Shown here piece by piece: positions 4,569-9,831 of a stretch of DNA of 23,093 nucleotides (position 1 is its first letter; every line of letters begins with the position of its first letter). Below the pieces are notes generated by a model that worked only from the letters and a program-made list of their open reading frames with translations, was not told the DNA's origin and made no database searches. A program made the position numbers and the translations under genes. This DNA comes from a virus: positions 1 to 23,093 of the IMG/VR virus record IMGVR_UViG_3300009553_000276; one strand, written 5' to 3'.

Positions 4569-4588
4569 TTCCCGCAAGGTCGCGGGAA
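4569..4588. promoter_or_regulatory. Palindrome TTCCCGC-N6-GCGGGAA, candidate operator
   Basis: A perfect 7-bp inverted repeat with a 6-nt centre (AAGGTC), about 40 bp upstream of the Xis-like gene. Closely related palindromes occur at 5446-5463 and 8638-8655, and shorter-spaced ones at 5317-5331, 5361-5375 and 5423-5437. Its location fits repressor control of the leftward early promoter. Confidence 0.55.
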
Positions 4589-4751: not shown

Positions 4752-5168
4752 ATGCCGTCCTCATTCGAAGTGGGAGCGCTGGACCCGCAAACCAGCGACA
4801 TGTCGGCCATGGTGCTCAATGGACCCGCAGGACTCGCCAGCGATGCTGATCTGGCCCGCTTTTCGTCAAACCTCAGTCGACTCAGAGAGGCACACAAACT
4901 CTCACGCGCCGCGCTCGGTCACCAGATCGGCGCCAGCGGAAAAATGATCGAACATTGGGAGGCTGGGACTGGGAACCCGGCCGTCCGTTACATCGTGCGC
5001 CTGGCACAGTTCTTCGGGCTGAACACCGATGATCTGTTAGGGGTTGGCCCGCGGCCGGACGAGGAACGCAGTCGCCTCGGCATGCTGCTCAAATACCACG
5101 AGCACCTGGAGGCGATCGAGCAACGGGTGCAGGAACTTGAGAGGGCGCGCGAGCATCCCCAGCACTGA
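4752..5168 (+). CDS. Cro/C1-type (XRE) phage repressor
   Basis: The protein has 138 residues. An HTH_3 domain occupies about residues 38-96 (LSRLREAHKLSRAALGHQIG, then ASGKMIEHWEAGTGNP and LAQFFGLNTDDLLGVG). A C-terminal coiled coil (103-133, ending HLEAIEQRVQELERARE) probably dimerises it. There is no S24 autocleavage domain, so induction would not follow the LexA/CI self-cleavage route. It is divergent from the early operon and next to attP and integrase, the usual position of an immunity repressor. It probably starts leaderless from TACGAT upstream. A later ATG (residue 17 or 20) could also serve as start. Confidence 0.75.
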   Translation: MPSSFEVGALDPQTSDMSAMVLNGPAGLASDADLARFSSNLSRLREAHKLSRAALGHQIGASGKMIEHWEAGTGNPAVRYIVRLAQFFGLNTDDLLGVGPRPDEERSRLGMLLKYHEHLEAIEQRVQELERAREHPQH

Positions 5169-5180
5169 GTGGATGCAGTT
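5169..5180 (+). repeat. Arm-like 12-bp motif, copy 1 (GTGGATGCAGTT)
   Basis: First of four copies of GTGGAT[GT]CA[AG]TT around the attP core. It starts 1 nt after the repressor stop and is inverted relative to copy 3, so that copies 1 and 3 also form a 14-bp-stem hairpin (5167-5207). Integrase arm-type sites or a terminator are the two readings. Confidence 0.6.
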
Positions 5181-5192
5181 AATTGAATCCAC
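5181..5192 (-). repeat. Arm-like 12-bp motif, copy 2 (GTGGATTCAATT on minus)
   Basis: Identical in all 12 bases to copy 4 at 5400-5411. It abuts copy 1 head to head. It lies in what would be the loop of the hairpin formed by copies 1 and 3, which a plain terminator would not need. Confidence 0.6.
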
Positions 5193-5193
5193 A

Positions 5194-5205
5194 AACTGCA
5201 TCCAC
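5194..5205 (-). repeat. Arm-like 12-bp motif, copy 3 (GTGGATGCAGTT on minus)
   Basis: Identical to copy 1 but on the other strand, and in direct orientation with copy 2, 13 bp apart start to start. It completes the cluster of three sites on the repressor side of the attP core. Confidence 0.6.
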
Positions 5206-5264
5206 TCGGCCGATTTTGAGACTTGTCTCACGAAAACGTATGCTCCGCAATCTCATTTGTGTAG

Positions 5265-5437: not shown

Positions 5438-5445
5438 GGCGTGCT

Positions 5446-5463
5446 TCCCGCGAGGTGGCGGGA
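5446..5463. repeat. Palindrome TCCCGC-N6-GCGGGA downstream of integrase
   Basis: The arms extend to CTTCCCGC/GCGGGAAG (5444-5465), making it the longest palindrome of the family, with centre GAGGTG. It ends 18 bp before the integrase stop. It could alternatively act as a terminator hairpin for integrase, though it lacks a T-run. Confidence 0.5.
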
Positions 5464-5482
5464 AGAATTTCTCACCAACTTG

Positions 5483-6682
5483 TCACAAAGTCGCGGTGTC
5501 ACCCAACGGACGGAACAAGACGTTCATGCGGTCGGCCACTGAGCGCCGCGTCTTGGGGTACAGGTGGCCATACGTGTCGACCGTGAGCTGGTAGCTGGCG
5601 TGACCGAGGATCTTGGATACGTCGTGCAATGCGATGCCCTGGGCAAGCATCTGCGACGCCGCGGTATGCCGCAGATCGTGCAACCGCTGCGTGAAGCCGG
5701 CCGCGGTGCGAATGCGATCCCAGATCCGATAGAGCGTGGTCGTTTCGATGCCGCCACCCTCATCCGAACAGAACACCAGGTCGCGGTCTTCCCACAGGTT
5801 GAGCGCTGACTGACGCTCGAACGCCTGGCGATCGCGGTGCGCGAGCAGCACATCGACCAACCCCTGGGGCATATCCAGTGTTCGCCGCGATGCCTCAGAT
5901 TTGTTCTCGTCGAAGTCCAGCCGGCGCGCACCATCCTCTTTCTTCTCGACGAGTTGCCAATACACGCGCACCTCGCGTTTGACCAGATCGAGGTACGACC
6001 AGCGCAGGCCCAGCAACTCGCCGCGGCGCAGGCCGAGTGAGACTGCCATCAAGAAAAGGGCTTCTAGACGCTCGCCAGCCAACGCGACTCGCAAAGCGTC
6101 GATCTGCTCATCGTTGAGTGGTTGGATACGTTTCTGAGGTTGCTGAACAACACGTTTGCGACCCTTACGGCGCGCGACCAGGGCGGGGTTCCGCGGCAGC
6201 AGCTCGAGCTCGACCGCATCGCCTAGAGCGACCTTCAACGTGGCCATGATGTAGGTCACGGTCTTCTCGGCTAGACCTTTGGCGCGCAGCTCACGTCGCA
6301 ATGTCTGGACGTGCTTCGGCCCAAACTCACCCAGGCGAACGCCAGCTATCGATGATTCGCAGATGTGGTTGGTGATGTTGACGGCATAGCCACGCAGCGT
6401 TGAGTCGCGCCGCTCGCGATCCTCTCGCGCGCCGGCGATCCAGTCTTTGAGGAAACTGCGCACCGTGTCTTTGTTTGAGGCCCGCGGCAGACCGGCGGCC
6501 GTATCGACGAGCACCTTTTGTGCCTGCAGGATCAAGGATTGCTGGTCGGCGTCCCGCAACGTCGTGCGTTTCCCGTTGAGCGAGACCTGCATGACCCAGG
6601 GTTTGTTCTTGCGCCTGGGATCTGGGTCATAGCGGGGCTTCGAACCCAGTCCGTTGACCTGGCGCCCACGGCCGGTTGTCAT
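5483..6682 (-). CDS. int: Tyrosine-type phage integrase
   Basis: The protein has 399 residues. An N-terminal AP2/arm-binding-like region (about 15-65, with KPWVMQVSLNGKRTTLRD) is followed by a SAM-like core-binding domain (72-160) and the catalytic domain (188-390). The catalytic set is complete: R219 in GLRRGELLGLRW, K261 in NKSEASRR, H335 and R338 in HDLRHTAAS, H361 in LGHAS, and the nucleophile Y371 in VDTYGHLYP. It performs site-specific recombination between attP and the host site. The gene ends about 180 bp from a tRNA-Phe 3' core, the usual int-attP arrangement, so a host tRNA-Phe gene is the predicted target. Its ATG overlaps the upstream ribbon-helix-helix gene by 4 nt, so both come from one leftward transcript. 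Confidence 0.95.
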   Translation of the reverse strand: MTTGRGRQVNGLGSKPRYDPDPRRKNKPWVMQVSLNGKRTTLRDADQQSLILQAQKVLVDTAAGLPRASNKDTVRSFLKDWIAGAREDRERRDSTLRGYAVNITNHICESSIAGVRLGEFGPKHVQTLRRELRAKGLAEKTVTYIMATLKVALGDAVELELLPRNPALVARRKGRKRVVQQPQKRIQPLNDEQIDALRVALAGERLEALFLMAVSLGLRRGELLGLRWSYLDLVKREVRVYWQLVEKKEDGARRLDFDENKSEASRRTLDMPQGLVDVLLAHRDRQAFERQSALNLWEDRDLVFCSDEGGGIETTTLYRIWDRIRTAAGFTQRLHDLRHTAASQMLAQGIALHDVSKILGHASYQLTVDTYGHLYPKTRRSVADRMNVLFRPLGDTATL

Positions 6683-7185: not shown

Positions 7186-7216
7186 GGCCGCCGCGCTGCG
7201 GAAACAGCCGGCGGCC
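7186..7216 (+). terminator. Strong hairpin after the FlbD-like gene
   Basis: GGCCGCCG-c-GCTG pairs with CAGC-CGGCGGCC around a CGGAAA loop, giving 12 G+C-rich pairs with one bulged C. It starts 15 nt after the stop at 7171. There is no T-run, as in many high-G+C terminators. It could instead shape the leader of the TcmP-like gene. Confidence 0.45.
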
Positions 7217-7242
7217 CGACACCAAGGGAGGATGACCCCTCG

Positions 7243-7344
7243 ATGCACAACCAGCCTAGCAGCGAGTCGAAACTGCCTGCGACGCTGGTCGAACTCCGCG
7301 TTTCACCAATAGGAGGCCGTCATGACGGTGTCTGGTGGGGCTAG
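7243..7344 (+). CDS. Possible 33-aa leader peptide before the TcmP-like gene
   Basis: ATG at 7243 follows GGGAGG at about 14 nt, and the frame runs to TAG at 7342-7344, overlapping the start of the TcmP-like gene in another frame. It begins MHNQPSSESKLPATLVELRV. It could be an upstream coupling ORF or chance. Support is only the ribosome-like site and the overlap. Confidence 0.2.
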   Translation: MHNQPSSESKLPATLVELRVSPIGGRHDGVWWG

Positions 7345-8251
7345 GCCGGGCGGGCGTCAATTGCCGCTGCAGCAATCGGAACTGGATCGGCTGATCGAGC
7401 ATATGCGGGCGGTGCAGCCTGACCCGCCCATGTTCGGCACACCAGTCGGCTGCTCGAGGGCGACGGGCTCGAAGCACGCGGTGTACCTGGGGGTGGTGCA
7501 TTGGTTCGCCAAGATGCACACCGTGTCGGTCAAGAAGGGGCGCCAGTTCTTCATGGGCGAGACGCACGCCGGCCCGGCGTGGTACCTGAACAGCGCCACC
7601 GGCGAGGACACGGTCGGCACGCCAATCATCGACCTGGACGTGCTGGACAAGCTGCCCCTGTTCAGTGAGCAGGGCTACCGCTACCGCGCGGTGTTCTGCG
7701 AGCGCGGCAAGCCGAAGGCGATCGTCACCCAGCTGCGGCATTCGATCGAGGCGAGCGGCTTTGGCCAGCACGGCGACGTGGCGGTGCTGGACGGCGAGTT
7801 CGAGAAACGCCTGCCCGAGTACCTGGAGGGACTGCCGCGCGGAACGCACCTGTGCGGCGTGCTATTCGTCGACGGCAACGGCTCGATCTCGCGCGATCTG
7901 ATCGAGATGTTCCAGTACTACAGTCGCGAATTGCACTACGTGGACGTGGCGATCTGGCACCAGGCGCACGTGCGACATCGGTTCGCGGGCTTGGGCCCCG
8001 CGGCGATCGCGCCTGGCGGAGCGTGGCATGGCCATGTCCAGAAGTACGATTACCGACCCTTGTGTGAGGTGCTACCGGATTTCTGGAAGCGCCGCTGGCT
8101 GATCCGACGCCCGTTCAACGCGGGCAATGGCACGGCGTGGACGATGCTCGTCGGATCGAACTGGGTCAAGCTGCCCGAATGGCGTGCCGGCGAAATGTAC
8201 CTGCTGCACACGCTAGATGGACAGAAGATCCTGAAGGAGTGCGACGAATGA
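7322..8251 (+). CDS. TcmP-like (three-Cys-motif partner) protein, methyltransferase-like fold
   Basis: The protein has 309 residues. It shows a degenerate version of the TcmP pattern: GETHAGPAWYLN (79-90, compare the family DTFAGPG-type loop), a Gly/Thr stretch ending VGTPI (98-102), AVFCERG (123-129, acidic position after strand 2), DVAVLDGEF (152-160) and GVLFVDGNG (179-187). These resemble the motifs of a class I SAM-methyltransferase fold. TcmP proteins are known to occur beside gp37/gp68 three-Cys proteins, exactly as here. The next gene starts inside its stop (ATGA), so the two are co-translated. A strong AGGAGG lies 7 nt before the ATG. The biochemical function of the family is not established to my knowledge. 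The C-terminal third (220-309) is less familiar. Confidence 0.66.
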   Translation: MTVSGGARPGGRQLPLQQSELDRLIEHMRAVQPDPPMFGTPVGCSRATGSKHAVYLGVVHWFAKMHTVSVKKGRQFFMGETHAGPAWYLNSATGEDTVGTPIIDLDVLDKLPLFSEQGYRYRAVFCERGKPKAIVTQLRHSIEASGFGQHGDVAVLDGEFEKRLPEYLEGLPRGTHLCGVLFVDGNGSISRDLIEMFQYYSRELHYVDVAIWHQAHVRHRFAGLGPAAIAPGGAWHGHVQKYDYRPLCEVLPDFWKRRWLIRRPFNAGNGTAWTMLVGSNWVKLPEWRAGEMYLLHTLDGQKILKECDE

Positions 8252-9831
8252 CCGTGAGCATGTTGCCGGCGCTGGAGGCGACGCGCTGGCCGATCGAGCG
8301 GCTCGTGCCGCACCCCAAGAATAAGGAGATCTACGGCGACACGGCCGACGACGAATTGCTGCGCAGTGTGCGCGTGCACGGGGTGCTGACCCCAATCACC
8401 GTGACGGCGGGCGGCGTGGTGGTATCAGGTCACCGACGCTTGGTGGCGGCGCGTGCAGCCGGCCTGACCGAGGTGCCGGTGACGCCGTTTGGGTCGGAAG
8501 ACGAGCTGGACATCGTTGAAGCGCTGATCGAGTCCAATCGTCAGCGCAGCAAGAGCAACGAGCAGATTGGCCGCGAGGCCGTCGAATTGTTCGCGGTTAT
8601 CTCAGCACGCCAACCGCAGGGCGGCCGGGGGAAAACCTCCCGCAACATCGCGGGAAGTTTGTCGAGGAAAGAGCGCGAGACGACAGCCCAGGTCGCCTCG
8701 AAGTTGGGCGTTGGCCAGAAGAAAGCCGAGGAAGCGCGACGCGTCGTGCAAGCCGTCGACCAGCTCGCAGCCGACGGCAAAACGCAAGAGTCAGAACGGC
8801 TACGACGAACACTCAACGGCCACTCGGTGCACCGTGCGTATACCGAAGCCGAACGCAACGGTTACATCGCGCCCCAGACGAAGCCTGAACAGGTGGCCGA
8901 CCTGGTGGCGCCGCCGCTCATCCTGCTGGGCGAAGATCCGTCGATCCCACGTCTCGTGACGCTCCCAGTATGGAAGAAGCTGACGGAGGACCAGCGGCAG
9001 CAAGTGCTGGCGCGACCGCGGTCAAAGAGTGCGACGTTCAACTGGCAGGTGTCCGATGACATCGAGTGGGCGCGCTGGTCGTGGAACCCGGTCACCGGCT
9101 GCAAACATGACTGCAGTTACTGCTACGCACGGGAGATCGCTGAGCGGTCGGACGCCTACCCGCAGAAGTTCATCCCAACGTTCTTACCCGAGCGACTGGC
9201 AGCACCGGCAAACACGCGCTACCCGGCGGCCGAGGACATCCGCCGCGAACCCGCTCGACAAAACGTGTTCACGTGCTCGATGGCCGATCTGTTCGGCCGC
9301 TGGGTACCTGACGCATGGATCGAGGCGGTCCTACAAACGGTCCGTTCGAATCCACAGTGGAACTACCTGTTCCTGACGAAGTTTCCCCAGCGCCTACCGG
9401 ATATCGACTTCCCCGACAACGCGTGGGTCGGCACAACGATCGATGCCCAGGTGCGCGTGAAGGTGGCCGAGCAAGCGTTCGAGCGCGTTAATGCACGGGT
9501 CAAGTGGCTGAGCTGCGAGCCTCTCCTAGAGAACATCCACTTCGAACGGCTGGACCTGTTCGACTGGGTAGTCATTGGCGGGGCGAGTCCCAACGCCGAG
9601 AGCGGGACGCCGGCGTTCCGTCCGCCACGACAGTGGGTCTTTGACCTGTGGGCCCAAGCACGTGAGGCCGGGTGTCTGATCTACGAGAAAACGAACCTGC
9701 TCGAGCGCGTGCGAGAAATGCCAGGAGCACGCGAGTTGCCAGCAGTCGATGTGCCAGGCGCCTTCAAGATGAAGTACCTGCAGCGCGATGTGCTGGCATC
9801 GAAATCCTACGCCCAGGAGATGGCCCGGTGA
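8248..9831 (+). CDS. Fusion of ParB-like DNA-binding domain and gp37/gp68 three-Cys (radical-SAM-like) domain
   Basis: The protein has 527 residues. Residues 10-100 form a ParB/Srx-like domain (WPIERLVPHPKN, VHGVLTPITV, VVVSGHRRLVAARAAG). About 100-200 holds a ParB-type helical region with an HTH (VASKLGVGQKKAEEARRVV). From about 264 the Phage_Gp37/Gp68 domain begins: TFNWQVSDDIEWARWSWNP, then GCKHDCSYCYA with C285, C289 and C292 in a CX3CX2C arrangement like that of radical SAM enzymes. FTCSMADLFG, FLTKFPQRL, WVGTTI, WLSCEPLL, WVVIGGASP and CLIYEKTN follow, all usual for the family. The start at 8248 overlaps the TcmP-like stop. The domain plan suggests targeting of a modification enzyme to DNA, which is inference. 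Confidence 0.85.
   Translation: MTVSMLPALEATRWPIERLVPHPKNKEIYGDTADDELLRSVRVHGVLTPITVTAGGVVVSGHRRLVAARAAGLTEVPVTPFGSEDELDIVEALIESNRQRSKSNEQIGREAVELFAVISARQPQGGRGKTSRNIAGSLSRKERETTAQVASKLGVGQKKAEEARRVVQAVDQLAADGKTQESERLRRTLNGHSVHRAYTEAERNGYIAPQTKPEQVADLVAPPLILLGEDPSIPRLVTLPVWKKLTEDQRQQVLARPRSKSATFNWQVSDDIEWARWSWNPVTGCKHDCSYCYAREIAERSDAYPQKFIPTFLPERLAAPANTRYPAAEDIRREPARQNVFTCSMADLFGRWVPDAWIEAVLQTVRSNPQWNYLFLTKFPQRLPDIDFPDNAWVGTTIDAQVRVKVAEQAFERVNARVKWLSCEPLLENIHFERLDLFDWVVIGGASPNAESGTPAFRPPRQWVFDLWAQAREAGCLIYEKTNLLERVREMPGARELPAVDVPGAFKMKYLQRDVLASKSYAQEMAR
8638..8655. repeat. TCCCGC-N6-GCGGGA palindrome inside the ParB-fusion gene
   Basis: Same arms and spacing as 4570-4587 and 5446-5463, but inside codons about 131-136 of the ParB/gp37-68 gene. 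It could be a stoperator, an autoregulatory or ParB-type binding site, or coincidence. Confidence 0.4.

Follow-up and report, generated by a model that had tools for sequence, protein, structure and literature searches.

The 23,093-base window analysed here, an IMG/VR virus fragment (record IMGVR_UViG_3300009553_000276), carries two overlapping genes that encode a TcmP-like protein with a predicted class I methyltransferase fold (protein 1) and a fusion of a ParB domain, a helix-turn-helix (HTH) domain and a DUF5131 radical S-adenosylmethionine (SAM) domain (protein 2). We found that this gene pair represents a widespread phage family, and its relatives show that a palindrome lying inside the fusion gene is beyond chance. 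The pair appears to be an undescribed system for the putative chemical marking of nucleic acid. An initial annotation, made from the sequence alone, had delineated both genes, and their coordinates, frames and overlap proved correct (Table 1).

In profile searches, protein 2 exceeded the Pfam cut-offs for DUF5131 (PF07505; residues 271-476, E 2e-40, 139.2 bits against a cut-off of 28.9) and for ParB_N (PF02195; residues 27-95, E 1.5e-6, 28.6 bits against 26.3), which upheld the two identities given in the initial annotation, and stayed below the cut-off for Radical_SAM (PF04055; 17.5 bits against 29.5). A profile of 69 relatives matched crystal chains of ParB/Noc with E values from 1e-8 to 1e-10. 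In the AlphaFold2 (AF2) model of protein 2 (predicted local distance difference test, pLDDT, 88.6), the ParB domain takes the clamp fold, and residues 10-101 superposed on ParB bound to an analogue of cytidine triphosphate (CTP) (7bnr; Z 14.1, root-mean-square deviation, rmsd, 1.6 over 87 residues, 32% identity). The ParB box picked out earlier, VVVSGHRRL, lies at residues 57-65, and its G61 and R64 are 98% conserved; binding of a nucleoside triphosphate (NTP) and clamp closure are functions predicted for this domain. ParB and KorB chains that include the HTH matched over longer spans (5k5d, Z 12.0, residues 9-206; KorB 8qa9, Z 11.8, residues 10-205), covering residues ~140-205 and bearing out the HTH that had been proposed.

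The best structural match of the DUF5131 half was spore photoproduct lyase (SPL; 4fhf, Z 14.1, rmsd 3.9 over 223 residues), below which came the radical-SAM enzymes RlmN (Z 11.7) and viperin (Z 10.7), and with Foldseek SPL was first among the radical-SAM entries for protein 2 (E ~1e-3); sequence identity between this half and SPL is ~11-13%. The three cysteines noticed in the initial annotation (C285, C289 and C292) form a genuine site, since they are invariant in 69 of 69 fusions, and C343 is 96% conserved in the family. The DUF5131 half is thus modelled as a radical-SAM barrel with a CX3CX2C motif, as its earlier description as radical-SAM-like had suggested, and a [4Fe-4S] cluster and SAM cleavage are predicted for it. 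A chance or mis-called fusion was rejected on the alignment of the 69 homologous fusions. Since SPL comes first among radical-SAM folds and this fold is joined to a ParB half, a nucleic-acid target is likely. The SPL match would also suit DNA repair, in which an SPL-like radical-SAM enzyme brought to phage DNA reverses a photoproduct or other lesion; however, the identity to SPL is low, and repair would leave the methyltransferase-fold partner, the HNH module and the domain swapping described below unexplained, which makes this reading very improbable to us.

Judged by its homologues, protein 1 is a remote TcmP relative, connected to that family through an intermediate hidden Markov model (HMM). 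Protein 1 matched the TcmP model TIGR04474 below its cut-off (E 9e-4, 19.2 bits against 53), and 37 of its 61 relatives matched the same model at E 0.01 or better. An HMM of 11 upstream partners from other phages, with the window's clade left out, recovered the full-length protein at E 4.7e-26, and reversed sequences gave no matches. Thus the label TcmP-like stood by way of the partner HMM and not by way of TIGR04474. A tblastn search of phage and plasmid records with protein 1 gave no hits, the protein being too divergent.

The AF2 model of protein 1 (pLDDT 89.1) has a class I methyltransferase Rossmann-like fold, in agreement with the methyltransferase-like nature proposed for it at the outset. 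Its top structural match was RlmJ (Z 14.4, rmsd 3.5 over 210 residues; Foldseek 4e-7), with other methyltransferases close behind and METTL16 a little lower. The sequence match to RlmJ chains was sub-threshold (E 0.03), with an identity to RlmJ of ~15%. A profile-to-chain alignment nevertheless showed the motifs conserved in the family (D-x-x-A-G, GSP, E, GD and DPNG) to be collinear with those of RlmJ. The GETHAGP, ERG and DGEF motifs listed in the initial annotation were located at residues 79-85, 127-129 and 157-160. The catalytic residues of RlmJ are K18 and D164, and its SAM is bound by H42, E118 and D143 (PMC3814359). By position and conservation, without superposition, Lys51 of protein 1 is likely the counterpart of Lys18, the catalytic lysine of RlmJ motif X. 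We conclude that protein 1 has, by its model, a class I SAM-dependent methyltransferase fold with motifs I, II, III and IV, methyl transfer itself being predicted. Because motif IV reads DPNG in the family and DGNG in the window, not DPPY, the reaction may differ from N6-adenine methylation.

These folds also bear on an RNA-directed explanation, in which rRNA, tRNA or phage mRNA would be the substrate of both the RlmJ-like partner and the radical-SAM domain, and the ParB/HTH half would serve as a KorB-like autoregulator that binds the palindrome. The partner's closest folds are RNA N6-methyladenosine methyltransferases, RlmJ and then METTL16; RlmN is the next radical-SAM fold below SPL; KorB is among the clamp matches; and the window's palindrome is also found in the divergent region upstream of a repressor gene. 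Nevertheless, the DNA enzyme SPL scores clearly above RlmN (14.1 versus 11.7), a DNA clamp joined to an RNA enzyme would require a special reason, and an operator ~390 nucleotides (nt) inside the second gene would be unusual. We consider this explanation unlikely.

The palindrome that the initial annotation had left unexplained does exist inside the fusion gene, and in the window its motif, TTCCCGC-N6-GCGGGAA, occurs three times (at 4569, 5445 and 8637). The copies at 4569-4588 and 5445-5464 are intact, and the related locus L001 has copies at the same two places. In the fusion gene, L001 carries a perfect 26 bp version and L002 a near-perfect one, while in L169 and in L101, whose fusion is 52% identical, the motif occurs once, in the fusion gene. 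When all fusion genes were searched, most proved to contain a palindrome of up to 32 bp, at a median codon of 134 and mostly in the ParB-HTH linker, with phage-specific sequences. A palindrome score of at least 9 was reached by 42 of 67 non-redundant fusion genes versus 4.8% of codon-shuffled ones, and a score of at least 12 by 22 of 67 versus none of 670 shuffled; these controls rejected the palindrome as a by-product of codon use. Partner (TcmP) genes of the same loci and host DUF5131 genes, used as further controls, gave 1 of 60 and 4 of 77. Phage fusions of ParB with an N6-methyltransferase, a small control, gave one case in nine at threshold, at codon 243 and outside the linker, on which we rejected the idea that phage ParB-fold genes generally carry such a palindrome.

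Among the 16 records scanned, the palindrome was single in 13 and present in three copies in the window and L001, and G056 had one extra weak hit. A centre spacing of 0 was the commonest (26 of 44), a geometry that fits a DNA dyad more readily than an RNA hairpin. A role as phage repressor operator, or as substrate or homing site of the HNH module or the methyltransferase, in place of a binding site of the fusion, might be suggested by the position of two of the three window copies, next to the HTH repressor gene and to the integrase. In most other records, however, the sole copy sits in the fusion gene, L101 has the same core in the fusion gene only, and palindrome presence is independent of HNH presence (Fisher p 0.61), and we judge such a role improbable.

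Viral contigs yielded 13 loci in a first scan and 80 in the next, and host genomes a further 80. DUF5131 domains at least 44% identical to that of the window have an N-terminal extension, mostly of 160-400 residues, whereas in host DUF5131 proteins this extension is short or absent. A TcmP-like gene lies directly upstream in 71 of 81 distinct N-extended DUF5131 loci (two of the other ten are 5'-truncated), so that the two proteins accompany each other in most related phages, as the initial annotation had expected. Stop-to-start distances cluster at -4, and the same spacing is found in about half of the relatives lacking an HNH module. Pfam scored ParB_N in 26 of the 69 fusions. Single-linkage clustering of the N-terminal halves merged types through a common linker; set instead by the ParB box and by eye, the types comprised 55 ParB-type and 21 other halves. 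On the DUF5131 tree the ParB/other label switches 12 times, at least five of them forced by well-supported branches, counts that depend on this typing. By this count the DNA-binding N-terminal half was exchanged at least five times while DUF5131 was kept. In L003 the fusion is 81% identical to that of the window and the TcmP partner (L003:4187-4987 versus window 7322-8251) only ~21-23%, so that the partner was either swapped or diverged very rapidly, in both cases much faster than the fusion.

An HNH-like module with the pattern C-x2-C...HH...N...C-x2-C-H was found at 31 of 81 loci, where it sits between the two genes, just downstream of them or as a fusion to the partner (sometimes at the C-terminus of TcmP); of eight modules tested with PF01844, two were above the cut-off and a further three weaker. 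Examples are L115, L163, L168 (fused), L004:6332-6631, L123, L140 and L172, among others. Beside the window pair we found no HNH module, and, given this absence, its restriction to those 31 loci and its lack of a link to the palindrome, HNH as a constant third component was rejected.

The reading we tentatively favour, with chances not far from balanced, is that the pair forms a phage-encoded nucleic-acid modification module, in which a clamp is loaded at an address and the radical-SAM domain, together with its partner, leaves a covalent mark in cis. The HTH would bind the in-gene palindrome as a parS-like address, and this binding would load the ParB clamp, which would then close and slide along the DNA bearing the address, that is, the phage's own genome or a prophage region. 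On the clamp-loaded DNA the radical-SAM domain and the partner would act in cis, the product would be a covalent base change that alters sensitivity to restriction or defence, and swaps of the DNA-binding half and of the partner would re-target the module. Because the window's in-gene copy has decayed and the two copies beside the repressor and the integrase are better, the fusion may act there too. A more specific version, which we hold possible but doubtful, is private marking: with a unique in-gene address and the clamp loaded only there, the module would mark only genomes that carry it, and swaps of address and reader would give a phage-specific mark. The initial annotation had supposed that the ParB domain may bring a radical-SAM-like and methyltransferase-like pair to DNA for base modification, anti-restriction or defence; its anatomy stood, since neither of two refuting conditions set with it, on the fold of protein 1 and on the co-occurrence of the pair, came true, and the function it named stays a proposal.

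Two properties of the palindromes favour the modification module, each with a caveat. Their similarity tracks the DNA-binding half (ParB, HTH) after correction for DUF5131 (partial r 0.26-0.33, 0 of 2000 permutations), versus a partial r of 0.04 (483 of 2000 permutations) for DUF5131, but as the palindrome sits inside the DNA-binding half of the gene, this correlation may reflect co-inheritance and not binding. Related phages differ on both palindrome arms together, for example L021/L156/L160, L163/L167 and L101/L107; the palindromes were selected, so the count of such changes is biased, although the homologous cases L021/L156/L160 and L163/L167 are plain despite that bias. Several points weigh against the modification module. 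Its support is computational, made up of folds, homology and statistics. Among ParB-fold proteins tested, 17 of 28 showed no NTP binding, and their nucleotide preference is not predictable (PMC12704722). The RlmJ and RlmN similarities allow an RNA substrate equally, and motif IV of the partner (DPNG; DGNG in the window) lacks the aromatic residue of DPPY. The in-gene copy of the window is by itself no strong palindrome, and 25 of 67 fusion genes are without one, including the close relative L003. Finally, 9 of 20 non-ParB N-domains also have a palindrome, which is thus not attributable to CTP clamping alone.

Defence or superinfection exclusion, in which the pair attacks or marks incoming foreign nucleic acid, with the ParB part as sensor or regulator, appears rather unlikely to us in view of the palindrome, which would aim the enzyme at its own DNA, of the copies that lie within phage replication gene clusters (L004, for example) and of the missing HNH module beside the window pair. 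Several observations do favour it. DUF5131 matches PDC-M30B/M41B, and host TcmPs match PDC-M30A/M41A. Host pairs were found within mobile elements and next to a type ISP restriction enzyme, and in S. meliloti the gene listed directly after the defence gene Hna is a TcmP. In addition, 31 of 81 phage loci have an HNH module with the pair, and the window pair adjoins the integrase, a usual place of cargo genes. With PADLOC, the B models hit the window fusion at 4.5e-37 and 2.9e-36 (PDC-M30 and PDC-M41), the A models gave no hit for protein 1, and the TcmP of the relative L024 matched PDC-A at 3.4e-8. The host homologues are uncharacterised defence candidates (PDC-M30/M41); to our knowledge, PDC systems are candidates and not tested systems.

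In two records we observed the following neighbourhoods. On the Rhizobium plasmid pC6.5b (L182, 2151-12756) a DUF5131-TcmP pair adjoins a type ISP restriction enzyme; another TcmP there is next to a DEAD/DEAH helicase, an arrangement similar to that of Hna and TcmP in S. meliloti. On P. aeruginosa pF046 (L178, 4913-8070) the pair lies in an apparent Tn3-family mobile element, beside integrases.

Table 1. Features of the gene pair and copies of the palindrome, in window positions
Feature	Position	Strand	Basis
TcmP-like, class I methyltransferase-fold protein, 309 aa, partner of the fusion (protein 1)	7322..8251	+	profile, partner HMM, AF2 model, RlmJ match
Lys51, invariant in 61/61 partners	7472..7474	+	partner alignment
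GETHAGP, SAM-binding motif I (family D-x-x-A-G; E80 here; RlmJ DTHAG)	7556..7576	+	alignment
Glu127, motif II acidic residue (RlmJ E118, binds SAM ribose)	7700..7702	+	alignment, PMC3814359
D184-G-N-G, motif IV (family consensus DPNG; RlmJ DPPY; D invariant in 61/61)	7871..7882	+	alignment
ATGA stop-start overlap of the two genes	8248..8251	+	open reading frame coordinates
ParB-HTH-DUF5131 (radical-SAM) fusion protein, 527 aa (protein 2)	8248..9831	+	Pfam, AF2 model
ParB CTPase-fold N-domain, residues 10-101, box GHRR 61-64	8275..8550	+	Pfam, profile, AF2 structural match
In-gene palindrome, degraded (AACCTCCCGCAACATCGCGGGAAGTT), codons ~130-137, low-confidence linker between ParB N-domain and HTH	8634..8659	.	
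HTH (KorB/Noc-type) domain, residues ~140-205	8665..8862	+	profile, AF2 structural match
DUF5131 radical-SAM domain, SPL-like, residues 238-482	8959..9693	+	Pfam, AF2 structural match
CX3CX2C cluster motif, C285, C289, C292	9100..9123	+	invariant in 69/69 fusions
Second palindrome copy, between divergent excisionase-like gene and HTH repressor gene	4569..4588	.	
Third palindrome copy, beside integrase stop codon	5445..5464	.	

The gene pair adjoins the window's integrase (5483-6682, minus strand) on the opposite strand, and the record also encodes a tail gene and a replication-initiation protein. An Rfam search of the window gave no match. Other inverted repeats were observed in the window. 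One (GCCGCCG...CGGCGGC, ~7192-7222), directly after the preceding small open reading frame and kept in L001 and L002, is possibly a terminator or leader hairpin. Another, at 7250-7289 with 18-nt arms (78%), lies ~35 nt 5' of the TcmP start and is found in L001 and absent from L002. Directly after the HTH repressor gene, overlapping inverted repeats at 5162-5207 (GAGTGGATGCAGTT / AACTGCATCCACTC, 14/14) form a separate palindrome family; the repeat at 5169-5192 was rejected as a member of the in-gene motif family, as a second match was not found.

Both TcmP and DUF5131 occur widely on phages, plasmids and mobile elements and appear in lists of defence candidates, and the phage family offers three handles on them: a fusion of a clamp with a radical-SAM domain, a fold for both proteins (SPL-like and RlmJ-like), and a candidate cis site for ~40 systems. 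Should the palindrome be the loading site, DNA in cis would be the substrate, and, if the modification module is true, ParB-type clamps would extend from DNA movement to chemistry delivered to one chosen DNA molecule. In the literature on TcmP, DUF5131 and Gp37/Gp68 we found incidental mentions and no paper establishing a function, within a search that had preprints and most subscription journals outside it.

Among the closest known systems, the pairs of TcmP with DUF5131 (phage Gp37/Gp68), with the PADLOC candidates PDC-M30 and PDC-M41, have the same two families side by side, a conserved CX3CX2C motif and a TcmP homologous by profile; unlike the phage fusions, host DUF5131 proteins begin fewer than 100 residues ahead of the domain and have neither the DNA-binding half nor the palindrome. 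With ParABS the phage family shares a ParB-type protein that has a palindrome in its own gene, and in B. subtilis parS lies inside the spo0J/parB gene. However, the phage palindromes are longer and phage-specific, an enzymatic domain replaces the C-terminal dimerisation domain, and ParA is nearly missing: PF13614 was found in one of 34 records, which are fragments, and not in the window record, and a standard partition system was rejected because ParA is this rare. SPL is of the same CX3CX2C radical-SAM type, to which the phage fusion adds the ParB/HTH half and the methyltransferase-fold partner, and RlmJ, the N6-methyltransferase of 23S rRNA A2030, has collinear motifs with counterparts of its K18 and D164 in protein 1, while motif IV differs. 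The surveyed phage ParB-CTPase-fold fusions (DUF3850, DUF4417 and N6_N4 methyltransferase; PMC12704722) likewise join an orphan ParB fold, without ParA, to another domain; unlike them, the present family adds an HTH, a co-encoded partner and an in-gene palindrome, and the main text of that survey has no mention of DUF5131, radical SAM, TcmP or palindromes. Thus, host TcmP-DUF5131 pairs and phage ParB-fold fusions are already known, and it is possible that the mechanism of the phage family is categorically new.

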